Shown here: piece by piece, positions 18,993 through 32,913 of the stretch
How positions within the stretch are numbered: position 1 is the first letter of the stretch
How the letters are laid out: the number at the start of each line of letters is the position of its first letter
NCBI GenBank assembly: GCA_003009755.1
Contig: PXUB01000002.1
Span: 10,943 to 63,482 of the forward strand
Direction of reading: 5' to 3'
Source of the DNA: Thermoplasmatales archaeon SW_10_69_26
GTDB lineage: Archaea > Thermoplasmatota > SW-10-69-26
DNA: 52,540 nucleotides
Translations under genes and position numbers: made by a program
Notes under the pieces: generated by a model
The model's database searches: none
What the model was told of the DNA's origin: nothing
The model's input: the letters and a program-made list of their open reading frames with translations, nothing else

Positions 18993-19912
18993 CGTCCGCC
19001 GAGGGCCTCGTCGAGCTGGTCCTTGTCGAACAGGCGCAGGCCCTGCTCGTCGAGGGGGATCACGCTCGGGTTGCCGTGGGCGGAGAGCACGTCGACGAGC
19101 GTCTCGGTGTCGCCGTAGGCGATCACGGTGTTGCCGAGCATGGCGGCCATGGCTTGGCCGCCTTCGCGGGCGACGTCGATCGCGGTGAGCACGTCGTCGT
19201 CGACGAGCCCGGTCTCGCGCGTGAAGTGGGCGCCGGCCTGGAAGATCGATTCCAAGGAGGGGTTCTCGGCGACGCTCTCGGTGCAATCGCTGCCGACCTC
19301 GGTGACGCGCTCCATGACGGCCTCGTCGCGCAGCAGGGCGTCGGTGTCGAGGTCCTCGCCGATGGTGACGGCCACGACGTCGCCCTTGGCGGGCAGGCGC
19401 TTTTGGGAGCCATAGGGAGCGATGCCGGGCGAGGTGCGGAGCACGGCGCCGCCGAGGAAGGAGGAGACGACGTCGCCGAGCCCGGTGCGGTGGCGGACCT
19501 CGGCCAGGTGGGCGGCCTTCATCGCCTTCGAGCGGCCCTTGCCCAGGCAGCGGGCGAGCGCGAACGCGGCCGACAGGGCGCTGGCGCCGCTGACGCCGAA
19601 GCCCTGTCCTTCGGGAGCGCCCTCGGTCACGGTGCAGGAGACTTCGATCGGGCGGTCGCCGAGGAGCTGGCGCAGGGCCTCGCGGGTGACCTTGGCGTCG
19701 CCGTCGCCGTGGCGGCGGGTGACTCCGATCGCTGCCTGGTCGGCCTCCTCGGCTTCGACGGTGGCGACGACGCCGGTGCCCAGGCACATGCCGGCGCCCC
19801 AGGAGCCGGTGCGTTGGGGCTCCTTGGGTTGGATGTTGGGCACGAAGAACGCGGTCACGTGGCAGGGCGCGAACGTCGTGGCTTCGGATCGGCGCAGCAG
19901 GTTGGCGTTCAC
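18989..19912 (-). CDS. Pantoate kinase (archaeal PoK, GHMP family)
   Basis: A 307-residue GHMP kinase that phosphorylates pantoate to 4-phosphopantoate, the first step of the archaeal route to phosphopantothenate. The ATP-binding GHMP loop is 'GQGFGVSGAS' (residues 102-111). The N-terminal 'CHVTAFFVPNIQPKEP' and 'TGSWGAGMCLGTGV' are typical of PoK. GTG start. It lies 3 nt downstream of coaBC, so both belong to one CoA-biosynthesis operon; the usual partner phosphopantothenate synthetase is not in the window. Its stop overlaps the ATG of the lipoprotein remnant. Confidence 0.92.
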   Translation of the reverse strand: MNANLLRRSEATTFAPCHVTAFFVPNIQPKEPQRTGSWGAGMCLGTGVVATVEAEEADQAAIGVTRRHGDGDAKVTREALRQLLGDRPIEVSCTVTEGAPEGQGFGVSGASALSAAFALARCLGKGRSKAMKAAHLAEVRHRTGLGDVVSSFLGGAVLRTSPGIAPYGSQKRLPAKGDVVAVTIGEDLDTDALLRDEAVMERVTEVGSDCTESVAENPSLESIFQAGAHFTRETGLVDDDVLTAIDVAREGGQAMAAMLGNTVIAYGDTETLVDVLSAHGNPSVIPLDEQGLRLFDKDQLDEALGGR

Positions 19913-19915
19913 GGT

Positions 19916-21106
19916 CTACACCTCCTCGTGGAGCGTCTGCAGCACGCGGCGGGCGACGGCCTCCTTGGAGCCCTCGATCGGGGTCGTGGCGGCGTCGGTG
20001 ACGAGGTGGACGCGCGTGTCGTCGACGTCGACGTCCTCGAGCCGGTTGGCGACGACGGCCTCGAGGCGGTTCTCCTTGCGGAAGCGCGCCGCCTTCGCCG
20101 TTAGATCGTCCTCGTCGATCCCGGCCTCGGCCTTGAACCCGACGAGGCGTTGACCGCCGTCGAGCTCCGCCCGCAGCTCGGGCAGTACCTTGGGGGTGGG
20201 CTCCAGCGGGAGGACCTGGTCCTCGCCGCTGGGCAGCTTGCCATCGGAGGGCTTGGCTTGGAAGTCGCTGATAGCGGCCGGCACCAGTACCCAGTCGTAG
20301 GCGGCGGCTTCCGGCGCGAGGTCGACGAGGTCCTGCACGGTGACGAACCGCTCGCGGGGCACGGTCTCGGGCAGGTCGACGTGGCCGTGGCCGAACCACA
20401 TGTCCACGTCGGCGCCCAGGCGGTAGGCCTCGCGGGCCAGCGCGGCACCGGTGCGGCCGGTGCTCTGGTTCGTGACGACGCGCATCTCGTCGATCGTCTC
20501 GATCGTGGAGCCGTTGACGACGAGCACGCGCTCGCCCTCGAAGGGTCCGGGGCCGAGCTCGCGGATGACGGTCTCGGTGACCGCCTCGATCGAGGCCATC
20601 TTGGCCTCGCCTTCCTCGAGCTCGGGGTCGACGACGGCGGCGCCTTCGTCCTCGAGGGTGTCGACGTGCTGGCGGGTGCGCTCTTGGTCGAGCATGCCCT
20701 CGTGCATGGCGGGGACGACGATCACGGGGACGTGGCCCAGGCTCGTGGAGACGAGGCTGGTTACGGGTGTGTCGTCGATGGCGAGCGCGGTCTTGCTGAT
20801 CGAGTTCGCGGTCGCCGGCGCCATCAAGACGGCGTCGACCTCGCCCTTGACGCCCACGAGATGCTCGACCTGGCCGGTGAGCTCGGTGACCGGTTCGTGC
20901 CCGGTCGCGAACTCCAGCGCGTAGGGGTGGAGGATGTCGAGCGCGGCGGGGCTGGCGAAGGGCACGACCTCGGCGCCGTGGCGGGCCAGCTCGCGGGCCA
21001 GCTTCACGGTCTCGACGGCGGCGATGCTGCCGGTTACGCCGAGCGCGATGCGGGTACCCTCGAGCAACGAGGATGCGTTGCCCCGGATCTCCCGGGCGGG
21101 ATGCAT
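19916..21106 (-). CDS. coaBC: Bifunctional phosphopantothenoylcysteine synthetase/decarboxylase
   Basis: A 396-residue fusion enzyme of CoA synthesis. The N-terminal CoaC flavoprotein has 'RIALGVTGSIAAVETVKLA' (FMN binding), 'APATANSISKTA' and 'PAMHEGM' with the conserved His/Met. The C-terminal CoaB part has 'VVTNQSTGRTGAALAREA', which binds the acyl intermediate. CoaB joins phosphopantothenate and cysteine; CoaC decarboxylates to phosphopantetheine. I chose ATG 21106 because homology begins at about residue 18 after it and the upstream extension is low-complexity Arg/Pro-rich. Operon with pantoate kinase (3-nt gap). Confidence 0.94.
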   Translation of the reverse strand: MHPAREIRGNASSLLEGTRIALGVTGSIAAVETVKLARELARHGAEVVPFASPAALDILHPYALEFATGHEPVTELTGQVEHLVGVKGEVDAVLMAPATANSISKTALAIDDTPVTSLVSTSLGHVPVIVVPAMHEGMLDQERTRQHVDTLEDEGAAVVDPELEEGEAKMASIEAVTETVIRELGPGPFEGERVLVVNGSTIETIDEMRVVTNQSTGRTGAALAREAYRLGADVDMWFGHGHVDLPETVPRERFVTVQDLVDLAPEAAAYDWVLVPAAISDFQAKPSDGKLPSGEDQVLPLEPTPKVLPELRAELDGGQRLVGFKAEAGIDEDDLTAKAARFRKENRLEAVVANRLEDVDVDDTRVHLVTDAATTPIEGSKEAVARRVLQTLHEEV

Positions 21107-21371
21107 GCAGCTGGCTAAGGACCTCGCGTTGAAAAAGCCACGCCGTCGAGACCGTCGCGTCGGGCCCGGAGGGTGACGAGCAGCCCTCGACGGAAAGACC
21201 AGAGGGCTGGCCTCGACCTTCGAGGGCGGACCCGGGCCGGCCCGAGGGGTGGCCTCGGGCGGGCCCGTCCCTACCGCGGGCAAACGGTGTCGCCCTCGAC
21301 GGACTCGATGGACCGCCCGGCCCCGTCGGGCGGTCGCAACCGTCATCAGGGACCCCCGTACTGCGGGTGCC

Positions 21372-22064
21372 GTGCCCGGTTACCGTGTCCCCTTCGGTCA
21401 GGCGAGCCCCGACGAGGAGCCCGAGGGTTTCGATCCCGGCCCGGTGTTGGCGAGGATCGTGGACGAGGATCTGGTGCCGGACAACGGTGGGACCGCCGAG
21501 GGCTCCATCGACACGGCCTGGGGCAAGCTGGCGGCCGAGCGCCGCGGCGGGGACGAGGTGCACGTCACCATGCCCGAGGCCGAGGTGACGAGCCGGCAGG
21601 TGATGGTGAACGTCGCGGCGATGAAGCTGGGCGTCGACAAGGCGCTCGTCGAGGAGACCGAGGCCGCGATCCAGGCGATCGACGTCGGCGAGCCGGTGTT
21701 GGTGTGCCCGCTGCCGGGCGAGGACGCCGTGCGGGACGCGCCCACGCAGGCCCAGGTGGCCACGGTGCCGGGCGTCGAGGCCGAGATCGGGGTGGCCTAC
21801 ACCGTCGTGCAGACCTCCCCCTACGCCCGCATCGTGGCGCGATCGTGGGGCGAGGGCCCACCGATGACGGTGCTGGCTGCGGCCGCGGTGCATCTGATGC
21901 TCAGCGAGCGGTTCAGGCCAACGTACCCCCGGACGCGCGTCGTGGCCGAGCTGGTCGACGAGGAGGGGGAGGTCGAGATCACCGTCCAGGCGCGCGAGGC
22001 CGGCGGCGGGCCGGTCGTCGAGCGCGTGCTCGTCGGCGGCCAGGTCGAGGCCCTCGACGGGTGA
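21372..22064 (+). CDS. Unknown acidic protein next to CoA genes
   Basis: A 230-residue protein starting at GTG ('VPGYRVPFGQASPDEE'). It is soluble and acidic with a regular alpha/beta pattern; features include 'VDEDLVPDNGGTAEGSIDTAW' shortened motifs, 'HVTMPEAEVTSRQVMVNVAA' and a C-terminal hydrophobic beta strand region 'RTRVVAELVDEEGEVEI'. I do not recognise the family. An upstream ATG at 21249 is in frame but adds an Arg/Pro-rich stretch unlike the rest. Divergent from coaBC and followed 51 nt later by tRNA-Gly. Confidence 0.65.
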   Translation: MPGYRVPFGQASPDEEPEGFDPGPVLARIVDEDLVPDNGGTAEGSIDTAWGKLAAERRGGDEVHVTMPEAEVTSRQVMVNVAAMKLGVDKALVEETEAAIQAIDVGEPVLVCPLPGEDAVRDAPTQAQVATVPGVEAEIGVAYTVVQTSPYARIVARSWGEGPPMTVLAAAAVHLMLSERFRPTYPRTRVVAELVDEEGEVEITVQAREAGGGPVVERVLVGGQVEALDG

Positions 22065-22115
22065 CGGAGCGAGGCGAAAAGCGTAAAGACGGGTTCCGCT
22101 TTGGGCGACCACCGC

Positions 22116-22188
22116 GCGGGTGTGGTCTAATCTGGTAGGACAGAAGCTTCCCATGCTTCTAGTCCGGGTTCAAATCCCGGCACCCGCA
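22116..22188 (+). tRNA. tRNA-Gly(CCC)
   Basis: All arms fold: acceptor GCGGGTG/CACCCGC, D-arm GTCT...GGAC, anticodon stem GAAGC/GCTTC around TTCCCAT (anticodon CCC at 22150-22152), T-arm CCGGG-TTCAAAT-CCCGG, discriminator A. No intron and no encoded CCA. Its 3' end forms the left boundary of the integrated element: the sequence from the T-loop onwards is duplicated at 26630. Confidence 0.96.
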
Positions 22189-22268
22189 CTTCTCCATCAG
22201 ACCCCATAGCAGTGCCACGTGCGGGTGCCGGGAGAGGACGCCCGACCACAGCCACCGCCGAGGGCGTC
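22172..22268 (+). repeat. Left 97-bp direct repeat (attL-like)
   Basis: Starts in the T-loop of tRNA-Gly and ends at GAGGGCGTC. It matches 26630-26726 over the full length with four substitutions by eye. It contains a 15-bp inverted copy of the tRNA 3' end (22175-22189 with 22219-22233) and a GACGCCC/GGGCGTC hairpin. Confidence 0.9.
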
Positions 22269-22272
22269 CGTA

Positions 22273-22463
22273 TCGCCAGCATCCTTGGCCGGGGGAACCG
22301 CACGGTCGGATGCTGGCGAGCGGGCGGATCCCCGATCCGCCCTGATCCGGAGATCAGCCTCGTCCACCAAGCCATCGGCTGATCTCCGAGGCACCCGCAT
22401 CCAGCCAGGCCGGGATTTGCGGCCGTCCTCCGGAGGGTCCGACCGCGGCAGATCGTCGGACCC
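22273..22463. repeat. Cluster of perfect palindromes inside the left end of the element
   Basis: Four consecutive strong inverted repeats: 22273-22284/22308-22319 (12 bp), 22322-22330/22334-22342 (9 bp, 3-nt loop), 22348-22359/22377-22388 (12 bp) and 22435-22443/22455-22463 (9 bp, GGGTCCGAC/GTCGGACCC). No gene fits here. The GTCGGACC arms recur in a hairpin at the right end (26578-26607). Possible roles are integrase arm sites, an origin or a structured RNA. Confidence 0.7.
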
Positions 22464-22468
22464 GGGGG

Positions 22469-23582
22469 TCATCGGACACCACCTCCACGGAGGCGGGGGA
22501 CGTGTTCGGTGTCCATCTCGGCCCGGGCGCGGGCTCGGTCCAGGTAGTGTTTCTCGACGGTGCGAACCTCGTCTCCAAGCGCCTGGGCGACCTTGTAGAC
22601 GTTGAACTCGGTAGCGATGAGAAACTCGGTGGCGACGTACCGCCGCATCTTGTACGGGTGGAACCCCGGCCAGACGCGCTTGCCGACCCGGGACAACTCC
22701 GTCTGGAGGTAGTGATCTGTCCACCGCTTTCCGTCCAGCTTAACGAACACGGCATCCTTGTCCGCATCAGCCTGGTCGCGATGGTGGTCGATGTAGTTGC
22801 CCAGACTCTTGCTGTTCGGCGCGTCGAGGACGTAACTGGGTAGCGGCATCCGGCGTCGGTTGCCGCCTTTCTTCTTCTCCGTGACGACGATCTCTCCGGC
22901 GTCACGGTCTACGTCGTCCAAGTCGAGCGCCGCGATCTCGCTGGGGGCTCGCACCCCGGTGTGGAAGCCGAAGTGGAACACGTAGGCCAGCGTCGTCCGC
23001 TTGAACGGGGACAGATCGTGGCCCCAATCCTCCTCGGCGGTCCAGACGTCCGGGGCAAGCTCGGGCTCCGGAAGGGTCCGAGTCGGCTCAGGCTCTCGGA
23101 ACTGAGGGTTCAAGCACTCCCATACGTCCTAACCCGAGGAACTTGAGCAAGCTCTTGAGCGCCTTCCGGTAGTGGTTCAGCGCGCTCCCGGTGGCCCCGT
23201 TCTCCATCCGGAGGAGGACGTGGTCTTGCCAGCTATCCTCGCTCGGCGGTCGGAGCGAGACGGGCGCGTCCTCGTGGTGCTCAAGGAACCGGATGTATCG
23301 GACCCGGCAGTCGGCGGTCCCAGGGGCTAGCCCCTGGCTGGCCACCATGTGCCGGCGGAACTCCTCGTAGGTCCCCTCGGTCAGCTCGGGGTTCTCGTTG
23401 TGCAACTCCCCAAGGCCAGCCAGTTCGATCAGGCCCGCGTCTCGCAGCTTGAGGAGCGTCTTGATCTCCTCAGGCCGAAGGTCCACGGTGGACGCCGCCT
23501 GTTGGGCGTTTGCAGCGTCCTGCAGAGTCAGATCGTCATCACTGCGGGACATCTCGGTGCCCTTCTGGGCAAGATGAGACAT
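22469..23582 (-). pseudogene. Tyrosine recombinase (integrase) split by a frameshift
   Basis: The N-terminal core-binding domain runs from about 23582 to 23110 ('GTYEEFRRHMVASQGLAPGT', 'LNHYRKALKSLLKFLGL'). The catalytic domain continues in another frame from 23113 to 22469 with Arg in 'HTGVRAPSEIAALDL', the HxxR box 'FHPYKMRRYVATEF' and the nucleophile Tyr in 'TVEKHYLDRA'. Together they make a normal integrase of about 370 residues. The single-base shift lies at 'GRMGVLE/NPQFREPE' (around 23100). The start could be ATG 23582, ATG 23552 or a leaderless TTG at 23720, which has a TATA-like box 25-28 nt upstream. It acts on the tRNA-Gly att sites. If the shift is real the element is immobile. 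Confidence 0.8.
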
Positions 23583-23813
23583 TTTCGTGACACTCTGCTC
23601 GGCTCCGGTTAGCGAGTGGGTCGTTGAGCATTGCCAACCACCTCGCCCGGAGCTACCGTTCTCGGTCTGCAGGTCGATTGCGGTCAATGCAGACCCAGAC
23701 AGCTCCCCAGGAGCAATCAAGCCCAGAAATTTCTACGTTAAGCCTAAAAGAGTAAGGTATGACGGGGAAAGCCTCTCTCCCCGAAAAAGAGGTCAGGCGG
23801 AGTTGGGGGAGAT

Positions 23814-25070
23814 CTAGAAAGGCCCAAGACGCTCTTGACCGGAACGCTCGATACTCTCGCTCAGGTCGTAGTCTTCGAAATTAAGCCCGAACTCCTCCTT
23901 GTACTCAAGCCGCTTGTCGATGGCGTCCGCCGAGAACAGGACGTTGAGATCCTGCTCTATCTCCTCGATGTATGAACGATCCTCATCAATGTTTGCGAAT
24001 CGTTCCTGGATGGGGGAGCAATCGTGGATCTCCGTGCCGACCCATTTACGACCCATCAGCTCGGCGGCGACGTAGGTTGTCCCTGCTCCACCGAATGGAT
24101 CGAGGACTCTGTCTCCCTGTTCGGTGGCCATTCCGATCACTCTGTGGAGAAGCTTCAGACTGAGTTGGTTGGCGTCACGGTGGAGGTATCTCTTGTGGCG
24201 GACGGGTGGAATGTCATCCCAGACATCGGTCAGATTCACCCCCTTTGGGTTCATCTTTGATTTGTATCCTCCGTAGTCATTCTGCTCACCTCCGCAGTGG
24301 GGGCAAGTGTCGATGGGAAGCCGGTCTGGATCGAACGTTTCGGGGGAACCCCCCTTTACAAAGTACAGGAGAGAATAATGAGATGGATAGAGACGGCCAG
24401 GGATCGGGAGTCCGAACTTGATGTCTACCGTAATCCAATGGCGAAGAGTGAGCCGTCGGGAAATGTAGTCTCCAAAATGGATATTCCATTTTGGCAGGTT
24501 ATACAGGAAGAAAGCACCTCCCGGCCGGAGAAGGCGGATAGCCTCGTCGATCCACTCGGTGGACCATCGGAGGTATTCATCTTCCGCAAGGTCGTCCCCG
24601 TTTTCTTCTCCATAGTCCTTGTCAAGATTGAATGGAGGATCTGCGAAGATCAGGTCAAAGGACTCTTCCTCTAGTTGCGGTAAAACATCGCGGCAGTCGG
24701 CGTTGTATAACTTGCCTCGCTCGGTACTGAAGATGGGTTCTGGAAGGCCACCCCCGGGGCCCTGCTCAAGAGTCTCCACATCGTATGCTTCCTCAAGTGC
24801 CTCAAGCCCTCTGTCGGGGTCTTCGACAAGAGCCTGCTGTAGCCGCTCCGGGAACTCGCCAGTTAGCAGATGGATCGCTTCGGGGGAATATTCTAGGGCC
24901 GATGCCAAGTCTTGGAGCTGGCTGTCCGTGGGGGGCACCCCTTCCTCGATGTCCCTTAGGGTGCCCACACGGAGGCCGGCTTCCTTCGCGAGCTCATTAT
25001 CGCTAAGGCCTTGCTTCCGACGGAGGCGGCTCACGACGTCGCCGGCCGAACGGAAAAGGAGGCCGGTCAT
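23814..25070 (-). CDS. XRE-HTH-fused beta-class DNA N6-adenine methyltransferase
   Basis: A 418-residue fusion. Residues 8-62 form an XRE helix-turn-helix ('DNELAKEAGLRVGTLRDIEE'). The methyltransferase part has motif IV DPPFN (144-148) before the AdoMet motif I DPFGGAGTT (324-332), the beta-class order; DPPF favours N6-adenine over N4-cytosine. A small CPHC motif (256-259) lies in the target-recognition region. It would protect the host at the restriction site and, through the HTH, could repress its own operon. Divergent from the wHTH-REase pair. Target sequence unknown. Lower GC than the chromosome, consistent with transfer. Confidence 0.9.
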   Translation of the reverse strand: MTGLLFRSAGDVVSRLRRKQGLSDNELAKEAGLRVGTLRDIEEGVPPTDSQLQDLASALEYSPEAIHLLTGEFPERLQQALVEDPDRGLEALEEAYDVETLEQGPGGGLPEPIFSTERGKLYNADCRDVLPQLEEESFDLIFADPPFNLDKDYGEENGDDLAEDEYLRWSTEWIDEAIRLLRPGGAFFLYNLPKWNIHFGDYISRRLTLRHWITVDIKFGLPIPGRLYPSHYSLLYFVKGGSPETFDPDRLPIDTCPHCGGEQNDYGGYKSKMNPKGVNLTDVWDDIPPVRHKRYLHRDANQLSLKLLHRVIGMATEQGDRVLDPFGGAGTTYVAAELMGRKWVGTEIHDCSPIQERFANIDEDRSYIEEIEQDLNVLFSADAIDKRLEYKEEFGLNFEDYDLSESIERSGQERLGPF

Positions 25071-25207
25071 TTCAGACTCTCCCTGCGAAGCGTCACAAGC
25101 CAGTCATCCATGGATGGGGCTTTACTCATTGGGTCCCTGATAGGTCCGACCACCCCTTTATTCCTTTCATTGGACGGTGAAAGGTCTGGTGCTTCGCTAG
25201 TAATATG

Positions 25208-25221
25208 CTGACCGTGGTCAG
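25208..25221. promoter_or_regulatory. Palindromic operator candidate CTGACC-GT-GGTCAG
   Basis: A perfect 6-bp inverted repeat with a 2-nt spacer, 13 nt before the GTG start of the wHTH gene and just after an AT-rich TAGTAATAT box. A repressor bound here would block the TATA box or start site. Either the methyltransferase HTH or the wHTH protein could bind. Confidence 0.55.
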
Positions 25222-25233
25222 TGGGATGGAGCA

Positions 25234-25467
25234 GTGGGCCGCAACCGAGACGATTTCAGCGGCCGGTACACACCGGAATTCACCGATGAAGACTTCCTAG
25301 AGGCAGTTGAAAGTATAGAGTCGGGCTCCACGGCAGATATCGCCGAGAAAGTAGGTTGCTCCCCGGATCTCGCCTACCGCCGGCTGCGGGATCTAGCTGA
25401 GGAGGGTCGAGTCGGCTCCGAGAAAATCGCAGGAAACTTTCGATGGTTCCCGACCCATGAGAATTGA
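25234..25467 (+). CDS. Small winged-helix regulator
   Basis: A 77-residue winged-helix protein: 'STADIAEKVGCSPDLAYRRL' is the recognition helix-turn-helix and 'GRVGSEKIAGNFRWFP' the wing. Such proteins are common in haloarchaeal and viral elements. Its stop overlaps the start of the putative endonuclease by 11 nt, so the two are translationally coupled. That position matches controller genes of type II restriction-modification systems, although the fold is not the classical XRE C-protein. GTG start, probably leaderless. Confidence 0.8.
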   Translation: MGRNRDDFSGRYTPEFTDEDFLEAVESIESGSTADIAEKVGCSPDLAYRRLRDLAEEGRVGSEKIAGNFRWFPTHEN

Positions 25468-26179
25468 CCAGGCACACACCCTTATTGACGAGGGAGATCT
25501 CTCGTCAACACGAGTCTGGCGTCGTGCGCGCCAGGATGTACTCGGCGCAGTTGAGGATGTCGTCTGGCCCCCGGATAACGATGAGTTCGTTGTCTATCCT
25601 GAAGAAAACGCGAATGGCGTTAACCCGATCACCGAGCAATTCGAGCCCAACCTGGACGCTTTGCCTGACTGGGAGGAAACCGGAAGAACACACCTCACGA
25701 CCCTACTGGATCGTCGGGGCATGCTGGAACGAACGATTGAGAAGGTCAGACCCTATTTCCATGACCCCCAGTCGTTCCTGAATAGCCCGTGGTTCGACGG
25801 GCTCAAAGACGTGGAGATCGACGGTGAGCCCGGCCTAATTGTGGCTGAGTGGGAAACAGGCAACATATCCTCTAGCCACCGCTCAGTCAATCGAATCATG
25901 GTCGGCCTGGTCGCCGGCATGATCCACGGCGGATTTATCGTCCTCCCCAACCGATCTCTGTACCACTACTTGACGGACCGGATCGGGAATTACCGAGAGT
26001 TGAGGCCCTACTTCGTAATATGGGAGTCTCTTGCTCACAAAGTTGAGAACGGAGTTATTGAGGTAATCGTTGTAGAACACGAGGGAGAATCTAAGGCCGT
26101 CCGCCCGATCGGGAAACTTACCGACGGTATGTCGGACAGGGAGGAACGGGGCATTGACGAGAGGGTGGATTGGGAGTAG
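25457..26179 (+). CDS. Putative type II restriction endonuclease
   Basis: A 240-residue protein. The central part reads 'GEPGLIVAEWETGN' (E131, E133) then 'SSSHRSVNRIMVGLVAGMIH', 'GGFIVLPNRSLYHYLTDRIG' and 'NYRELRPYF'. An acidic strand (E-x-E) after a beta strand, followed by a helix and then a hydrophobic strand ending in 'PNRS', resembles BglII/BamHI-like PD-(D/E)xK nucleases and haloarchaeal proteins annotated as restriction endonucleases. It cuts the sequence protected by the divergent methyltransferase if the assignment is right. Overlaps the wHTH gene. The family call is from recollection and residue pattern; a profile search is needed. Confidence 0.6.
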   Translation: MRIDQAHTLIDEGDLSSTRVWRRARQDVLGAVEDVVWPPDNDEFVVYPEENANGVNPITEQFEPNLDALPDWEETGRTHLTTLLDRRGMLERTIEKVRPYFHDPQSFLNSPWFDGLKDVEIDGEPGLIVAEWETGNISSSHRSVNRIMVGLVAGMIHGGFIVLPNRSLYHYLTDRIGNYRELRPYFVIWESLAHKVENGVIEVIVVEHEGESKAVRPIGKLTDGMSDREERGIDERVDWE

Positions 26180-26629
26180 ACCTCATAGAGTTCCGCATTG
26201 CGGTGGCTGGTTATTGAACGGGGCCGAGAGGAAGTGGTTGGCAATCGTGCGGGGTTCCCGGCCCCTGCATTGACCGAACTGCAGCAATCCTGAGCATGGG
26301 CTAAAACCCTGCTTTTGTAGCAGCCGTTATCAAAGAGCAAGCCTTTCCTCCGGACGGCAATTGTGCGGAAGAGCGGCCGCCGGCGGTCTCCGGGATTCGA
26401 TCATCTCAGGGCCTACGAGGCGATGAGACGACTGGTGGAAGAGAAGAAGAGGAGGCACCCTCGCGGGTGCTAGGCAGAACGCTGTCTTCCCGGCAGCAGC
26501 CACCATGCTCCTCTGTCGGCGTCCGTCCCTCCTGAGATCGAGAACGCGCCCGGCCGGGATTTGAACCCCTGGGTTCATCGTCGGACCGAGCTTGCGAGGT
26601 CCGACGAGAGTACGGCCGCAGGCCGCACG
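26180..26629. other. Right inner end of the element, no gene; tRNA-like remnant and hairpin
   Basis: No credible coding sequence. At 26550-26576 the plus strand reads like the complement of a tRNA T-arm (GGGATTTGAACCCC). Next to it is a perfect 10-bp hairpin, 26578-26587 with 26598-26607 (TCGTCGGACC/GGTCCGACGA, 10-nt loop). The order T-arm then anticodon-like hairpin resembles the 3' half of a minus-strand tRNA, but no complete cloverleaf can be folded. It may be a decayed tRNA or an older attachment site. Confidence 0.5.
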
Positions 26630-26726
26630 AAATCCCGACACCCGCACTTCTCCAGCAAACCTCATAGCAGTGCCACGTGCGGGTGCCGGGAGAGGACGCC
26701 CGACCACAGCCACCGCCGAGGGCGTC
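26630..26726 (+). repeat. Right 97-bp direct repeat (attR-like)
   Basis: Copy of 22172-22268 with four substitutions, beginning with the tRNA 3' sequence AAATCCCGACACCCGCA (one change from the intact tRNA). The chromosome appears to resume after it. Confidence 0.88.
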
Positions 26727-26821
26727 GGCCTGGAGACGGGCGTCTCCCATCGTGGCACTGGTCCGTCTGCAGAGTACCCGCGTCTCGAGCCGGACGAGAA
26801 CCCCGCACCCAGCGCGGCCGT

Positions 26822-27436
26822 TCACCCGCGCCCGATGTCGTCCCGGGAGGGGGGAGCCGAGCCGTCACCGCGTAACCGTCGTTGGAACCGGCGATAGAAC
26901 ACGTACCCGATCAAGGCGGCGGACGGCGATGCGAGCAGCGCGCCGATGACGAGCGAACGTTGCTCGGTCTGGGTGTAGGTCATGTGGACGGAGACGGCGG
27001 TCACGTTGTCCTCGGGGCCGCGGTTGGGATCCTCGGGCATGCGGGAGCCGATGAGGAGCACGGTGCGGTTCTCGCCGTCGGTGCGGAACGTGAAGTTGTA
27101 CGTGTCGGTGACGTTCGTCCGCGAGAGCGTCCTGTTGTAGGAGACGTTCTCGTTGAGCTCGAAGGTGTACGTGCTCCCGTTGAGCGCGTTCAGCGTGAGG
27201 TTCTCCATGTTCATCATGTAGACGTCGATCGGGCCGCCCTGCAGCACGCTGGTGTTGACGGAGATGTTCTCGCCGGCGGCGCCGGGCTCGATGAAGTCGG
27301 GCTTCATCTCGCCTGGTCCCAACCGGAAGCGGGGCGTCGGGAGCTCGCGCTCGACGTCCTGGGGCTGGTAGTAGGCGGCGGCGAACAGGGCGCCGAACAG
27401 GGCGAAGCCGAGCAGGACGACGAGGACCCGGCGCAC
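26822..27436 (-). CDS. Bitopic/two-helix membrane protein with glycosylated extracellular domain
   Basis: A 204-residue protein with an N-terminal membrane helix (residues 3-21, 'VLVVLLGFALFGALFAAAYY'), an extracellular beta-rich domain with many NxS/T sequons ('NISVNTSV', 'NMENLTLNALNGST', 'NVTDTYNFTF'), and a second helix (about 163-180) followed by an Arg-rich cytoplasmic tail. No family recognised. GTG start; a TATA-like GTACAATAGG lies about 25 nt upstream. Divergent from the PAP2 gene, sharing a compact promoter region. Confidence 0.75.
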   Translation of the reverse strand: MRRVLVVLLGFALFGALFAAAYYQPQDVERELPTPRFRLGPGEMKPDFIEPGAAGENISVNTSVLQGGPIDVYMMNMENLTLNALNGSTYTFELNENVSYNRTLSRTNVTDTYNFTFRTDGENRTVLLIGSRMPEDPNRGPEDNVTAVSVHMTYTQTEQRSLVIGALLASPSAALIGYVFYRRFQRRLRGDGSAPPSRDDIGRG

Positions 27437-27457
27437 ACCGCCGGGAGCCCGAGGAGC

Positions 27458-27467
27458 CTATTGTACG
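27458..27467 (-). promoter_or_regulatory. TATA-like box for the minus-strand membrane protein
   Basis: GTACAATAGG on the minus strand, about 26 nt upstream of the GTG start at 27436; leaderless spacing. Confidence 0.5.
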
Positions 27468-27500
27468 TTGCGGCTGGGCCCTCGCCGGGCCCGACAAGCC

Positions 27501-27506
27501 TATACC
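27501..27506 (+). promoter_or_regulatory. TATA-like box of the PAP2 gene
   Basis: TATACC about 28 nt upstream of ATG 27532; forms a divergent promoter pair with the box at 27458-27467. Confidence 0.5.
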
Positions 27507-27531
27507 GTGGCTCGCTGTCGGTTCCTCGCCG

Positions 27532-28446
27532 ATGGTCCTGGGGATGTCGATCGGGCGGTTCCTGCTGGTCTTGGCCTTGGCGGTGTCGCCCTTGGCGATC
27601 CTGGTCTTCCGCCCGCGGCGCATGGGTGGGGGCTTCTGGCGCAACCTGTTCCGCCTGTCTCGCGACAACTGGCCCCAGGTCGGCGTGCTGGCCGTGTTGT
27701 ACGTGATGAAGAACTACGTCGACACCCTCAACGACCCGATCCGGGGCGTGTTCGGCGACTTCACCTACCTCATCTACAGCCTCGAGGGGGACCTCGTGCT
27801 GTGGATCCAGCAGGCCTTCTACCACCCCTGGCTGACCGAGGTGCTGAACTACAACTACCTGTTCGGCTACATCTTCCTGACGTACTTCTCGTTCATCCTG
27901 ACGGCCTACGCCGGGCACGAGCGGTTGGCCACGCGCATGGTGCTGAACGTGTTGATCGTGTACGTGCTCGCGATCCCGTTCTACGTCTTCTTCAACGTCC
28001 AGGTCACGAGCAACTACATCCCGGGCGTGATCTCGCTGTTGTACCACGACTCGGCCTCGTTCTTGTCCTTCTTCGCCGCCGTCGATCCGCTCGACAACGC
28101 CTGGCCGAGCCTGCACATCGGGATCCCGTTCGGCTTCCTCGTCCTCTTCTGGTGGCAGGGCCGGCGCGAGGGCGCCGACTTCGCGGCCGATCCCTACCGC
28201 CGGTACATGATCTTGATCGGCGCCCAGCTGCTCGTGTTCGTGTTCAGCATCATGTACCTGGGCATCCACTGGGCGTTGGACATCCCGGGCGGCCTGTTGG
28301 TCGGTTACGCGGGCGCGCTCGTGGTCGACGAGTTGGGCGACGACGTGCACCGGGGGCTGATGGGGACCCGCGCGGTCGTGAACGGAGCCGTGGGGCAGGC
28401 CTGGCAGGGCCTGCGAGATCGGTTGAGGGCTCTCGGCGGAGGCTAG
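27532..28446 (+). CDS. PAP2-family membrane phosphatase/transferase
   Basis: A 304-residue membrane protein with about six helices. The PAP2 C-terminal catalytic motifs are 'DNAWPSLHIGIPFGF' and 'YLGIHWALDIPGGLLVGY', each with a catalytic or structural His. The family dephosphorylates lipid phosphates or moves phospho-head groups; archaeal members may recycle polyprenyl or dolichyl phosphate or build inositol-type lipids. With UppS and the glycosyltransferases at 29-37 kb it suggests a lipid-carrier glycosylation role. ATG start supported by a TATA-like box. Confidence 0.87.
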   Translation: MVLGMSIGRFLLVLALAVSPLAILVFRPRRMGGGFWRNLFRLSRDNWPQVGVLAVLYVMKNYVDTLNDPIRGVFGDFTYLIYSLEGDLVLWIQQAFYHPWLTEVLNYNYLFGYIFLTYFSFILTAYAGHERLATRMVLNVLIVYVLAIPFYVFFNVQVTSNYIPGVISLLYHDSASFLSFFAAVDPLDNAWPSLHIGIPFGFLVLFWWQGRREGADFAADPYRRYMILIGAQLLVFVFSIMYLGIHWALDIPGGLLVGYAGALVVDELGDDVHRGLMGTRAVVNGAVGQAWQGLRDRLRALGGG

Positions 28447-28476
28447 CCTCTTCCGGGCGCACGCGTCTGCGGCGGC

Positions 28477-29019
28477 ATGGACATCGATCCGGCCGATCAC
28501 GGGTTCGGTCTCTTCGGGGCGGACTTCGGGTACCCAGGCGGGGGGCTGTGCTTGAGCGTGTTCCTGGCCGTCGAGCGGGACGGGGAGCTGTTGACGGGTC
28601 GTATGGACGAGGAACGGGCCCAGCGATGGACCGAGGCCTGGGCGCCGAACCTGGCCTACTACGAGGGCGAGCGTCGCGCGCGGCTGTTCGACGGTTGGCG
28701 GTTCCCGGCGACCTACTTGCGGGTTGGGGAGGAACCGCAGACGGCGGCCGAGCGTGTGTGGCGCGACCAGCTCGGGTTCGAGGTTGAGCCTCGGCTGGGC
28801 TCGATGGAGGTGTCCTCGAGTTCCCAGCCCTCGCGACGGACGCCCGATCACGAGCACTGGGACGTCGTGTTCGCCTACGCCGCCGAGGGGCCGCCCATCC
28901 AGCGGGTTCCCTCGCACTGGGACGCGTTCGGGTACCGGCCGCCCTCCGAGCTGGCGCCGGAGACCTCGGTCATGCTGCATGGCCAGATGTTGGACGAGCT
29001 GGCCTCGCTGGCGGAGTGA
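28477..29019 (+). CDS. Nudix-like protein with degenerate catalytic box
   Basis: A 180-residue protein. Residues 76-101 ('FPATYLRVGEEPQTAAERVW' then 'RDQLGFE') align with a Nudix box but lack the RExxEE core: the metal-binding acidic residues are replaced (RVWRDQ). The surrounding beta strands fit the Nudix fold ('WDVVFAYAAEG'). It may bind rather than hydrolyse a nucleotide compound, or act in another way. Same strand as PAP2 with a 30-nt gap, probably co-transcribed. Confidence 0.6.
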   Translation: MDIDPADHGFGLFGADFGYPGGGLCLSVFLAVERDGELLTGRMDEERAQRWTEAWAPNLAYYEGERRARLFDGWRFPATYLRVGEEPQTAAERVWRDQLGFEVEPRLGSMEVSSSSQPSRRTPDHEHWDVVFAYAAEGPPIQRVPSHWDAFGYRPPSELAPETSVMLHGQMLDELASLAE

Positions 29020-29412
29020 GGGTCCCCGCCGCCAGACGACGATCGGTTCCAGCCGTTGCTCGCCCTCGCGGTACTGGTCCCCGATCTCCTCGGAGCTGGG
29101 TGGGTCGAGGCCCCGGCCCCTGGTGACCAGTCATCCGGCTTCGGCCTGGCGAGGGCCTCGGGCTCGAGCGGTTCGCCGTCGACGTCCTCGGTTCCGTCGT
29201 CGGTCAGGTCGAGGCAAGCGGTCCACGCCGTGGCCGTCGAGGCCGGCGAAGGCGACCTCGGGCCGTCCTCGTGCAGCAGGCCCAGGTCCTCGGACGGGCG
29301 GCCACCGTGGTCGATCCGACCGGGACGGGATCGCTGGTCCGCGGTGCCTGTTCCTGGTCGAGGAAGGAACGGCCGCCCGAGGTCGCCGAGGTCTCCCGCT
29401 TCCGTGGGACGA
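29020..29412 (-). other. 393-nt region with decayed coding-like sequence on the minus strand
   Basis: No intact gene. On the minus strand, short protein-like pieces appear in different frames: 'GLLHEDGP', 'EVAFAGLDGHGVDR' and 'CLDLTDDGTEDVDGEPLEPE', each with the G/C-ending codon use of the genome. They look like one gene broken by several indels, perhaps a former downstream partner of the glycosyltransferase at 29413. Too short to identify. Confidence 0.3.
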
Positions 29413-30780
29413 TCATCGGGGTTCCCAGCGGGTGGCGCCGCCGGCCTCGCCGGCGTGCACCCACGGGCCTTCGGGGAGATCGCCGGGCACGTTCGTCCAG
29501 CTGGTGGGGAACACGACCGCGTCCACGCCGTCGACCTCGTGCAAGCGCTCGTACGTCTCGGCCCGGTGCATCACGATGCGGTCGCCGTCCCGGGTCATCT
29601 CGACCGTCGAGGGTCCGGTGGCGGCGGTGGCGGCGATCCGCCAGCCGCGATCCTCGAGCACGCGGGCGAAGGATGGTGTGCTGCGCACGACGACGGTCTC
29701 GCCGGGCTCGATCAGGCCGACGGCGTCCTCGTGGTCGACGAGGCCGGGCGTGTTGGCGGCGTTCACCGTGTCCTGGCCGGTGACGATCGCGCCGAGGGAG
29801 AGCCCGGTGGCGACGAGGGCTGCCCCCGCGAGCACGGCCCAGCCCCGGCGGCCCCACCACCGCGGCGGATCGCGAGCTCTCAGCGTGGCCAGCGTGGGCA
29901 ACAGCGGTAACACGTACCGGTAGAAGGGGGCGGCGACGACGGCCGCCGCGGTCGCCAGCGTGATCCCGTGCTCGCGCTCGTCGGTCCCCCGCCGGGGATC
30001 GACCAGCAGGGGACCGGCGGTGGCGAGGATGACGAGCCCGACCCAGGCCGTCATGCGGACGATCGAGGCCACGTTGGGCGCCGGGTCGTCCAGCGTGGCG
30101 AGGTACTGGCCGCGCCCGTCGGCCGGCGTCGCGAGGTAGGCAACCATGACGACCCCCCAGGCGAGAGCGGCAGGGTAGGGCTGAACGAGCCGGCCCCAGG
30201 CCCGCCAGGCCTGCCAGCCCTCGCGAGCGATCGCGACGGCGCGAGGCGCGAGCACGCAGGCCAGCACGAGCAACGCGAGCTCGTGGGTGAACACGGCCAG
30301 GTTCCAGCCGGCGACCTCGATGTCGCGCCGGTCGGCGGCCCATCCCCAGGCGGCGAGGCTGAGGAAGGCGAACATCGGCGGGTACAGGGTCACGGTGACG
30401 AGCGGGATCGCGGCCGGGGCAGCGAGGACGACGGGCAACAGCCAGGCGGGCGAGCCCCCGGATCGGCGGATCGCGTCGCCGAGCACGAGCAAGCCCCCCA
30501 GCGTCCAGACCAGCGGCCAGGCGCGGGCCATCAGGCCCAGCCCGTTCCAGGCGCTGAGCAGCGCCAGGCCCAGGGGAGGGTGGCGAAGGAAGACCTCGCC
30601 CGGGTAGAAGGAGCTGTGGAAGGGATGCTCGGCGATGTCGATGTAGATGGCCTCGTCGTGCGTCAGGGTCTCGCCGACCGTCGACAACCAGATCGCGACG
30701 AAGACGAGGCAGACCAGCCCGACGAGCGCCCAGAAGCGCCGATCGCTCGGTAGGCGACGTTGGCGGTCGTTCCCGGTCAC
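29413..30780 (-). CDS. GT-C family membrane glycosyltransferase
   Basis: A 455-residue membrane protein with about ten helices and a soluble C-terminal domain (from about residue 335). The first extracellular loop has 'ETLTHDEAIYIDIAEHP', the Asp/Glu motif of GT-C enzymes (ArnT/PMT-like) that transfer sugars from polyprenyl phosphate, and 'VFLRHPPLGLALLSAW', the second conserved loop segment. GTG 30780 is preferred over 30900 because a purine-rich GAGGGGGAC precedes it and the upstream part is low complexity. Likely acts on the outer face of the membrane in glycan or glycoprotein assembly. Confidence 0.8.
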   Translation of the reverse strand: MTGNDRQRRLPSDRRFWALVGLVCLVFVAIWLSTVGETLTHDEAIYIDIAEHPFHSSFYPGEVFLRHPPLGLALLSAWNGLGLMARAWPLVWTLGGLLVLGDAIRRSGGSPAWLLPVVLAAPAAIPLVTVTLYPPMFAFLSLAAWGWAADRRDIEVAGWNLAVFTHELALLVLACVLAPRAVAIAREGWQAWRAWGRLVQPYPAALAWGVVMVAYLATPADGRGQYLATLDDPAPNVASIVRMTAWVGLVILATAGPLLVDPRRGTDEREHGITLATAAAVVAAPFYRYVLPLLPTLATLRARDPPRWWGRRGWAVLAGAALVATGLSLGAIVTGQDTVNAANTPGLVDHEDAVGLIEPGETVVVRSTPSFARVLEDRGWRIAATAATGPSTVEMTRDGDRIVMHRAETYERLHEVDGVDAVVFPTSWTNVPGDLPEGPWVHAGEAGGATRWEPR

Positions 30781-30950
30781 ACGTCCCCCTCGCTTCTCCG
30801 GCCGCGGAGAACAGCCCCGGGCAACCTTGTCAGGCTTTTTGCTTGTGGACCCGGACGAACACGTTCGGCTCCCCACGGGCTGAGGTGGCCGGCCGCTCAC
30901 CGGTGCGCATCGCTTATCTACCCGGCCGAGGCTTCCCCTCGCGAGTCCTC

Positions 30951-31649
30951 ATGAAGCTGAACTGGCACGGTCACGCGTTCTTCGAGCTCGAGCTGGCGAC
31001 CGGCGCCCGGTTCGCGGTCGACCCGTTCACGCAGTCGGCGGGGAACCCCCTCACGAGCACCGAAGCCGACGACGTAGACGTCGACACGACGCTCGTGACG
31101 CACGGGCACGGCGACCACTTCGGCGCGACCCTGGACGTCGGTGAGCCGGTGCTCGCCATCCACGAGGTCGCCAACTACATCCAGAACCAGGGCCTCGAGG
31201 ACGCGGCCGGCACCGGCGGCGGCATGAACCTCGGCGGCACGGTCGAGGTCGGCGGGGCCGACGTCACGATGGTGCCCGCGCTGCACTCCAGCGGTTGCCC
31301 GGGCGCCGAGGGACCGTTCATGGGCGAGGGTGGCGATCCGGCGGGGTTCGTCATCGACGACGGCGAGACGACGTTCTACCACATGGGCGACACCGCCCTG
31401 TTCGGCGATCTCAAGCACGTCGTCGGTGACCACTTCGACCCGGATCTCGTCGCCGTCCCGATCGGCGACGTGTTCACGATGGGCCCGGACGCGGCGGCGA
31501 CGGCGATCGACTGGATCGATCCCGACGCCTGCATCCCGATCCACTACGACACGTTCGGCCCGATCGAGCAGGATCCGGACGCCTTCGCTCGCGAGGTCGC
31601 CAGCGCCGACGTGCACGTCGTCAAGCCCGACTCGACACTGACCTACTGA
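30951..31649 (+). CDS. Metal-dependent hydrolase, UPF0173/UlaG-like beta-lactamase fold
   Basis: A 232-residue protein with the metallo-beta-lactamase motif 'THGHGDHFG' (H51, H53, D55, H56), 'ALHSSG' and 'YHMGDTALFGDL' with further metal ligands, and 'CIPIHYDTFGP' near the C-terminus. This order and length match the UPF0173 family, found across archaea and bacteria with uncharacterised substrates. ATG start; stop lies 4 nt before the CBS gene GTG, so they are probably co-transcribed. Confidence 0.93.
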   Translation: MKLNWHGHAFFELELATGARFAVDPFTQSAGNPLTSTEADDVDVDTTLVTHGHGDHFGATLDVGEPVLAIHEVANYIQNQGLEDAAGTGGGMNLGGTVEVGGADVTMVPALHSSGCPGAEGPFMGEGGDPAGFVIDDGETTFYHMGDTALFGDLKHVVGDHFDPDLVAVPIGDVFTMGPDAAATAIDWIDPDACIPIHYDTFGPIEQDPDAFAREVASADVHVVKPDSTLTY

Positions 31650-31653
31650 CGGG

Positions 31654-32071
31654 GTGAGGACATCGATCGTCCAATCGGTAATGAGCGAGCCTGCGTTGAC
31701 GCTTCGCGCCGGCGAGAGCGCGCGCGATGCGGCCCGGCGCATGTGGGCCAACCGGGTCGGCTCGGCGCTCGTGCTCGACGACGGTGAGCTGGTGGGCATC
31801 GTCACCGAACGACCTCACGTGGGTTCTGGCCGAGGACCGGGACCCCAACGAGACCGGGCTATCGGAGGTCATGTCGAGCCCGGTCGCGACGATCGAGCCC
31901 TCCGCCAACGTCGAGATCGCAATCGAGACGATGATCGAGGAGGGGGTCCGGCGGCTCGCCGTCGCGTTGGACGGCGATCTGCGGGGGGTGGTCAGCGTGA
32001 CCGACGTCGCCTACGCCGAGCCCGAGCTGGCTCGCCGCGCTGGGGAACGCACCGCCCGCTGGGAGGACTGA
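31654..32071 (+). pseudogene. Two-CBS-domain protein with a 2-nt frameshift
   Basis: CBS domain 1 runs in the first frame to 'ALVLDDGELVGIVTE' (near 31810). The second frame then continues with 'DLTWVLAEDRDPNETGLSEV' and CBS domain 2 ('IEPSANVEIAIETMIEEGVR'), ending at 32071. The normal family sequence at this point is GIVTERDL; losing GC from CGCGAC would give exactly the observed CGAC. CBS pairs bind adenine nucleotides and act as energy sensors. Whole protein would be about 139 residues. Could be a real mutation or a sequencing deletion. Confidence 0.8.
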
Positions 32072-32121
32072 CCCCCCGGGACCCCCGAAAGACCCTTGGC
32101 CCGGGACACGGTGGCCGAGCC

Positions 32122-32913
32122 GTGGCCGACGAGCAAGGGTGGGTCCCCGATGCCATCACCGACGCCTTCTCCCTCGCGGCAGAGCGGACCCTTCTGAACC
32201 GCGTCCGGGAGGGCGAGGTCCCCCACCACATCGCCATCATCATGGATGGCAACCGTCGGTTCGCCCGCGAGGTCGGCATGTCCCCTGTCGAGGGGCACGA
32301 GGCCGGCCGCGACACGTTGGAGGACGTCGTCGACTGGTGCCTCGACATCGGCGTCGAGGTGCTGACCGTGTACGCCTTCTCGACCGAGAACTTCGACCGC
32401 GAACCGGGCGAGGTCCAGGCGTTGATGGACCTCTTCGAGGAGAACTTCTACGAGATGGCCGAGGACGAGCGCGTGCACGAGCACGGGATCCGGGTGCGCG
32501 CGATCGGCCGCACCGACGTCTTGCCGGCGGACGTGCGCGAGGCGATCGACGACGCCGAGTCCAAGACCGAGGACTACGACAGCTACCACTACAACATCGC
32601 GATCGCCTACGGGGGTCGCGAGGAGCTGGTGTCGGCGATCCGCGACATCGCTGAAGACGTGGACGACGGCGAGCTCGATCCCAGCGACATCACCGAGAAG
32701 CACGTCGACGAGAACCTCTACACGGCGCCCCTCCCCGACCCGGATCTGATCTTGCGGACCAGCGGGGAGGAGCGCATGAGCAACTTCCTCTTGTGGCAGC
32801 TGGCGTACAGCGAGCTGTACTTCGCGGACGTCAACTGGCCGGATCTGCGCAAGGTCGACTTCCTGCGCGCCATCCGCGACTACCAGCGCCGCCAGCGCCG
32901 CTTCGGGCGATAG
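32122..32913 (+). CDS. uppS: Cis-prenyltransferase (UppS-type polyprenyl diphosphate synthase)
   Basis: A 263-residue enzyme extending farnesyl or geranylgeranyl diphosphate with cis-isoprene units to make the polyprenyl carrier for glycosylation. Signatures: 'HHIAIIMDGNRRFARE' with catalytic Asp42 in DGNRR, 'VYAFSTENFDRE', 'YNIAIAYGGREEL' and 'LILRTSGEERMSNFLLWQ'. Length is normal. GTG start at 32122. Uses GGPP-type precursors like those from the gene at 38473. Supplies the carrier lipid used by the membrane glycosyltransferases in this window. Confidence 0.95.
   Translation: MADEQGWVPDAITDAFSLAAERTLLNRVREGEVPHHIAIIMDGNRRFAREVGMSPVEGHEAGRDTLEDVVDWCLDIGVEVLTVYAFSTENFDREPGEVQALMDLFEENFYEMAEDERVHEHGIRVRAIGRTDVLPADVREAIDDAESKTEDYDSYHYNIAIAYGGREELVSAIRDIAEDVDDGELDPSDITEKHVDENLYTAPLPDPDLILRTSGEERMSNFLLWQLAYSELYFADVNWPDLRKVDFLRAIRDYQRRQRRFGR

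Follow-up and report, generated by a model that had tools for sequence, protein, structure and literature searches.

The window analysed here is the whole of a stretch of 52,540 nucleotides from contig PXUB01000002.1 of Thermoplasmatales archaeon SW_10_69_26. In it, the gene for tRNA-Gly(CCC) is followed by an array of short non-coding hairpin units, in which the tRNA 3' end is copied in inverted and in direct orientation, and a small island encoding a BamHI/OkrAI-type restriction-modification system lies within the array. Most likely, the island was inserted in the inverted tRNA copy of unit 2, and the 97-bp direct repeats on its two sides mark where units 1 and 3 begin. The explanation as a whole, a tRNA-anchored unit array with an island inserted via a T-arm core into the second unit, is considered probable. 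"Unit" is used as a descriptive label only. The genome holding the window (G000) is a 2.8-Mb draft of 49 contigs, and its rRNAs are archaeal (SSU_rRNA_archaea at full length, and LSU_rRNA_archaea). The locus contains the following features.

22116–22189, plus strand: intact tRNA-Gly(CCC), anchor of the array (ARAGORN; Rfam tRNA)
22172–22268, plus strand: left copy of the 97-bp repeat, with the last 18 nt of the tRNA, the trailer, the inverted tRNA 3' end and the next hairpin (repeat search)
22190–22399, plus strand: hairpin unit 1, 210 bp, starting with the trailer
22219–22233, plus strand: inverted tRNA 3' end of unit 1, GTGCGGGTGCCGGGA
22236–22269, 22273–22319, 22322–22342 and 22348–22388, plus strand: hairpins of unit 1
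22390–22399, plus strand: closing tRNA 3'-end copy of unit 1, GGCACCCGCA
22400–22419, plus strand: left remnant of unit 2, with trailer TCCAGCCAG and the beginning of the inverted tRNA copy; proposed attL of the island
22408–22419, plus strand: core GGCCGGGATTTG in the proposed attL
26552–26646, plus strand: right part of unit 2; core GGCCGGGATTTG at 26552–26563 (proposed attR), then T-arm-like GAACCCC/TGGGTTC, a tandem-GA arm and a third arm
26630–26646, plus strand: closing tRNA 3'-end copy of unit 2, AAATCCCGACACCCGCA
26630–26726, plus strand: right copy of the 97-bp repeat (repeat search)
26647–26726, plus strand: hairpin unit 3, truncated

A first-pass annotation of this DNA had described an integrated element bounded by 97-bp direct repeats with four differences that take in the tRNA 3' end. 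The repeats are present at exactly 22172–22268 and 26630–26726, with 96% identity and a spacing of 4458 bp, and the four differences are all within the first 33 bases. The left copy does cover the last 18 nt of the tRNA. The other 79 of the 97 bp lie beyond the tRNA and make up hairpins that belong to a family present at other tRNA genes. The repeats correspond to parts of two units of this genome-wide family. Their interpretation as the element's own attachment duplication is not supported, and a shorter inner repeat, missed in the first-pass annotation, fits island integration better. This inner repeat (22404–22419 and 26548–26563) contains the 12-bp core, which starts at 22408 and 26552.

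The position of the inner repeat is informative. Directly after unit 1, TCCAGCCAG is followed by GGCCGGGATTTG, which is the antisense sequence of the tRNA-Gly T-arm, as in the inverted copy of a unit. When the flanks are joined at the 12-bp core, they give a canonical unit of 103 nt that resembles free units. Its parts are the closing helix, a mimic of the T-arm, the tandem-GA arm (GGACC-GA-GC-TT-GC-GA-GGTCC) and, at the end, a copy of the tRNA 3' end. The inner core and the restored unit together indicate that the island was most likely inserted in the inverted tRNA copy of unit 2. The island measures 4144 bp. Its integrase gene stops 49 bp short of the left core, a position that fits an integrase adjacent to its attachment site. 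The G+C content is about 0.555 in the gene interior and about 0.70 in the flanks, in agreement with the AT-richer interior reported before.

A comparison of tRNA-Gly(CCC) loci in relatives, as the annotation had proposed, revealed an orthologous empty site. Contig C128 of G001, the sole other genome of the same family that was searched, is colinear with the window at 19315–32906. In that contig, the homologue of the right-flank gene (26822–27436) comes immediately after tRNA-Gly(CCC), and the PAP2 gene is next. This locus in G001 has no restriction module and no hairpins, and the region from 22190 to about 26800 is wholly absent. The comparison decides whether the region is present or absent, but does not show how many insertions took place.

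Together with a tyrosine integrase near one end (its frame broken) and direct repeats of the tRNA 3' end at both ends, the empty site gives the locus the usual marks of a tRNA island. These facts support DNA acquired with an integrase and a type II restriction-modification system, anchored at tRNA-Gly(CCC). A conventional alternative is that the island was integrated at the tRNA-Gly 3' end or at a copy of it, so that the repeats would be attL and attR and the hairpins would be part of the attachment region. Copies of the tRNA 3' end are present on both sides (22390–22399 and 26637–26646) in addition to the 97-bp repeats, and the integrase adjoins the left end. In the same genome, a 13.4-kb island sits directly at tRNA-Phe, and the hairpin units of that tRNA are located beyond its right attachment site. 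This alternative leaves unexplained the inner repeat and the complete unit that is restored by joining there, and the same hairpins are seen at tRNA genes that have no island. We consider it rather unlikely. Direct repeats of the tRNA 3' end also flank units with no genes, so they cannot delimit an island by themselves.

The tRNA-Phe island is an observation in its own right. It is located on contig C19 (57000–76000) and includes an integrase, a Prim-Pol primase-polymerase, an N6/N4 methyltransferase, a ResIII-type restriction subunit and a HerA helicase.

A search of the genome with the left repeat found matches that adjoin other tRNA genes. At tRNA-Gly(TCC) and tRNA-Gly(GCC), the pairing partner of the similar sequence is the 3' end of the adjoining tRNA and not that of tRNA-Gly(CCC). 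For this reason, the 3' flanks of all tRNA genes found were examined. Among the findings that would count against it, the first-pass annotation had named a general dispersed repeat unrelated to tRNA-Gly; the repeat is indeed dispersed, yet linked to tRNA genes, so that this objection applies only by half. The order in a unit is as follows: the tRNA 3' end, a trailer (mostly 5–35 nt), an inverted tRNA 3' end, 1–5 hairpins, and a direct repeat of the tRNA 3' end. The inverted copy is 9–18 nt long and often continues as GGATTYGAACC..GGTTC. The hairpin stems are 8–14 bp, and the direct copy spans from the T-loop to the discriminator base. Units are 56–400 bp in length and are in tandem at some tRNA genes, such as those for Arg(TCG), Leu(TAG) and Gly(TCC). 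In total, 62 unit sequences were collected.

In the genome holding the window, 21 of the 40 tRNA genes have units on their 3' side by either feature (the direct or the inverted repeat), and each unit matches its own tRNA. Direct repeats of at least 12 nt are present downstream of 15 of the 40 tRNAs and upstream of one, and they are seen in 0.6% of trials with swapped tRNAs. Inverted repeats of at least 10 nt are present downstream of 17 and upstream of none, against 9.4% with swapped tRNAs; this second test is less specific, because T-arms resemble one another.

Units recur across five families of the phylum of the window, and rarely in a haloarchaeal genome. By either feature, they are found at 16 of 38 tRNAs in G002, which belongs to another family of the same class, and at 16/26, 13/23, 5/6 and 4/6 tRNAs in four genomes of family f12 (G032, G024, G014 and G038). 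Two genomes of family f8 have 8/13 and 4/12 and one of family f36 has 4/10, with none upstream in f8 and f36. The f12, f8 and f36 genomes were picked after a first unit had already been noticed in them, and the counts for some genomes cover their best-scoring tRNAs only. Small samples of 5–6 tRNAs each from G001 and G003–G006 contain no units.

Outside the phylum, units are seen at 2 of 19 tRNAs of a haloarchaeal metagenome-assembled genome (MAG), one of them with a tandem-GA arm, and at 1/22, 1/9 and 1/8 tRNAs of Verrucomicrobia, where they are mostly partial. None was found at 17 tRNAs of Mycobacterium, 15 of Nitrospirae and 8 of Opitutaceae. The haloarchaeal unit at L329 (contig C334 of G390) is located 3' of tRNA-Arg(CCG). 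It is compact, with a tandem-GA hairpin in the trailer, an inverted copy and a 22-nt direct repeat of the 3' end of its tRNA, and it indicates that the family extends beyond the phylum of the window. In a verrucomicrobial contig (L321; C190 of G395), a 22-nt direct repeat of the 3' end of tRNA-His surrounds a nuclease fragment that, by eye, resembles GIY-YIG. The pattern GGATNNGAACC..GGTT, searched over 390 genomes, matches mostly ordinary tRNA T-arms; G000 and G032 alone stand out, and the result is not a map of distribution.

RNAfold pairs the inverted copy of most units with the next direct copy, which closes a multi-arm loop. This loop contains a small hairpin similar to a T-arm and one to four longer arms. 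The median folding z of units is about −4.7, compared with −1.1 for upstream segments. One of the arms, the tandem-GA arm, has the form stem-GA-GC-nnn-GC-GA-stem, in which the internal GA/GA is invariant. There are 23 of these arms in the 450 nt downstream of 170 tRNAs, none upstream, 0.0 in shuffles and 2 on the antisense strand. Among 18 distinct sequences from three families, all 8 pairs are standard throughout, and all 8 vary on both sides. Doubly changed cells number 55, against 15.6 in shuffled sequences, and the signal collapses in slid controls. The 100% pairing is partly built in, because the set was selected for pairing; the invariance of GA and the absence upstream are not.

The units might be structured RNAs transcribed together with the tRNA, whose closing helix and tRNA-like 3' end would serve processing, regulation or tRNA mimicry. 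The arms covary around the invariant GA/GA, the tandem-GA arm is on the tRNA-sense strand (23 sense and 2 antisense), and the same arm is found in four or more families. The sense strand also folds better than the antisense strand in 37 of 58 cases by z (p = 0.013) and in 41 of 58 by energy (p = 0.004), which hints at RNA. On the other side, the counts of G.U and A.C mismatches (6 and 2, or 26 and 21 in a laxer and noisy scan) fail to separate RNA from DNA. Units are missing at tRNA-Gly(CCC) of G001 and in the small samples of four genomes of the same class. A search of Rfam 15 with nine unit-bearing loci returned only tRNA and one sub-threshold tmRNA match, and no known RNA family. An RNA of this kind is possible, though we think it somewhat unlikely.

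It is very improbable that template switching in replication, or mis-assembly, at hairpin-prone tRNA genes produced the tRNA copies with no element and no function involved. Template switching is able to make perfect palindromes, and contigs C3 and C19 end in arrays. Against this, the same ordered grammar and the covarying tandem-GA arm are present in several unrelated genomes, and nothing of the grammar or the arm is seen upstream of tRNAs.

The preferred interpretation of the units is a non-autonomous integrative element, because their direct repeats look like attachment duplications in the T-loop and a gain or loss is evident from the empty site. The tandem short non-coding units after tRNA-Gly(CCC) can form cloverleaf-like folds with two to five arms, closed by the inverted and direct tRNA copies. 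The units would spread or persist at tRNA 3' ends via site-specific recombination at the T-loop, with no gene of their own, and their direct repeats would be the resulting attachment duplications. The BamHI/OkrAI-type island with its tyrosine integrase was probably inserted through the 12-bp T-arm core, and the island's own integrase may have made the insertion. With its integrase frameshifted, the island is of doubtful mobility today and probably fixed in place, barring the action of another recombinase. The R and M proteins might guard the host against foreign DNA bearing GGATCC and stabilise the island by addiction.

Several points weigh against this interpretation. A 12-nt inner match arises in 4 of 1000 composition shuffles, which is modest alone; the argument for nesting is carried by the position of the match and by the restored unit, not by the 12-nt match itself. 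The direct repeats of the array, GGCACCCGCA and ACACCCGCA, permit the simpler reading that the island was integrated at a tRNA 3'-end copy. There is no integrase gene tied to the units, and it is not obvious how one integrase could match the 3' ends of about 20 different tRNAs. Interpreting the units as an element leaves both this matching of many tRNAs and the inverted copy unexplained. Some contigs of the draft assembly also terminate inside hairpin arrays, the above-mentioned C3 and C19.

The units could alternatively be decoys or landing pads, in which extra attachment sequences of the tRNA in both orientations divert integrating elements from the tRNA gene, and the island would be a caught case. 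Two copies of the T-arm/acceptor attachment sequence are present in each unit, and the island is apparently in an inverted copy with the tRNA untouched. This is a single case, however, and the tRNA-Phe island used the tRNA despite the presence of units. Protection would also gain little, because integration at tRNA 3' ends normally restores the tRNA. We regard a decoy function as improbable.

A retroviral-style primer-binding site was also considered for the inverted tRNA copy. It was set aside, because the inverted copies inspected (for example those of tRNA-Gly, Val and Leu) do not start with TGG, which would be complementary to CCA.

Integrating elements classically land in tRNA genes, and island boundaries are routinely set from repeats of the tRNA 3' end. 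If many archaeal tRNA genes bear units with no genes, boundaries set by such repeats can err, as here. Archaeal islands in tRNA genes with a tyrosine integrase of the pNOB8-type layout have been described (PMC8371274, PMC3293823, PMC9897764). Similar to these, the island in the window has an integrase at one end, duplications of the tRNA 3' end, a foreign composition and an empty site in a relative. It differs from them in being inside a pre-existing hairpin unit, probably in the inverted tRNA copy. An SSV-type integrase split by the attachment site was ruled out, since the break is a frameshift in the middle of the gene and not at the attachment site. Integrative elements are known to leave partial copies of tRNA 3' ends downstream of the complete gene, flanking about 9–23 kb of element DNA (PMC9897764). 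Unlike those fragments, the sequences here are non-coding hairpins of 56–400 bp, include an inverted copy as well, and are present at around half of all tRNA genes.

In Haloquadratum, miniature inverted-repeat transposable elements (MITEs), SMRs and PATEs are short, non-coding, dispersed repeats with inverted repeats or palindromes and no transposase (PMC3119063). The hairpin units are also short, non-coding, palindromic and dispersed in an archaeal genome. The Haloquadratum repeats have family-specific termini, whereas the termini of a unit, although inverted to each other, reproduce the tRNA beside it and vary between units. Integron cassettes are in tandem at a fixed anchor, and their attC sites are imperfect palindromes of variable sequence. 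The units resemble such cassettes in their tandem arrangement at a fixed anchor and in their recombination-type sites. They differ in that the anchor is a tRNA gene and most units have no gene; no integron integrase was identified in a comparison with general integrase models.

In the open-access literature, no description of units with this grammar was found; an earlier description may exist. The hairpin units are apparently undescribed, at least a variant of small non-autonomous repeats and possibly a new kind. It is tentatively proposed that these tRNA-anchored cloverleaf cassettes could represent a distinct class of archaeal element or RNA, which stacks as insertion platforms for gene cargo in an integron-like manner with tRNA genes as anchors. 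The units are abundant, specific to their tRNAs, conserved in structure and patchily distributed. This raises the question of how the 3' ends of about 20 different tRNAs come to be copied in both orientations in one genome, and how these copies are kept. The answer could reveal a new non-autonomous integrative element, a class of RNA linked to tRNA, or a decoy system for attachment sites.

The island between the cores encodes the following genes, in which HTH stands for helix-turn-helix.

22469–23720, minus strand: tyrosine recombinase broken by a frameshift; C-terminal half 22469–23113, N-terminal half 23088–23720
23814–25070, minus strand: DNA methyltransferase, the M of a BamHI-like system, with N-terminal HTH_3, N6_N4_Mtase and a DPPF motif (Pfam 3e-37)
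25234–25467, plus strand: small winged-HTH regulator, overlapping the start of the R gene (weak HTH matches; PHROG 18890, 9e-10)
25457–26179, plus strand: type II restriction endonuclease (R), BamHI/OkrAI family (Pfam BamHI 4e-37)

Pfam and HTH matches agree with all four members of the module named in the first-pass annotation (integrase, methyltransferase, regulator and endonuclease), with the correction that the integrase is split between two frames. The C-terminal half of the recombinase matches Pfam Phage_integrase (6e-13), and the catalytic domain is in the frame 22469–23113. The broken frame is either a pseudogene or a sequencing error. The methyltransferase matches PADLOC MTase_II at 3e-123. 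The endonuclease scores 127.8 bits against Pfam BamHI (cut-off 22.8), and in the PDB it matches OkrAI (6e-32) and BamHI (8e-19). In an alignment of six relatives, D103, E131 and E133 (D...E-x-E) are invariant. A homologue of M adjoins R in 11 of 11 related loci in public genomes.

As judged from the sequence, the restriction-modification module is a typical representative of a known family and the island an ordinary defence island. Like BamHI and OkrAI type II systems, which target GGATCC, it has the D and E-x-E residues, an adjacent divergent methyltransferase of the N6/N4 type and a small regulator. It differs from them in its archaeal host and in about 15 extra residues before the active site, and its specificity for GGATCC is putative. 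The regulator of the BamHI system is a C protein, and that of the island is instead a winged-HTH protein. GGATCC occurs 25 times in the window against 27 expected. This lack of avoidance is compatible with protection by M and proves nothing. The satellite element suggested in the first-pass annotation was ruled out: no packaging, capsid-hijacking, replication or phage-structural gene was seen in the island by Pfam, PHROGs and lists of open reading frames. No relatives of the island's integrase were found in viral contigs.

The nearest relative of the system is in a haloarchaeal MAG (L036; uncultured Halobacteria archaeon, CAKZQY010000188.1, 6305–8792). The order M, winged-HTH and R is kept there, with identities of 64% for M, 58% for the regulator and 48% for R. 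The R frame of this relative is interrupted by two stop codons over the matched stretch.

Other hairpins in the genome holding the window are arranged differently. On contig C30 (17500–23500; L088), tandem perfect hairpins occupy about 700 bp after tRNA-Arg(GCG), with no copy of the tRNA 3' end nearby. Two types of hairpin, GCGAGCATC..GATGCTCGC and TACATCCTATCC..GGATAGGATGTA, recur there several times. Hairpins of the same type with covarying stems are also present on contigs C25, C48, C27 and C47 (L092, L093, L094 and L005, respectively), with no tRNA gene within the stretches taken. One of these four sites comes after a sequence resembling an ISXO2-type transposase.

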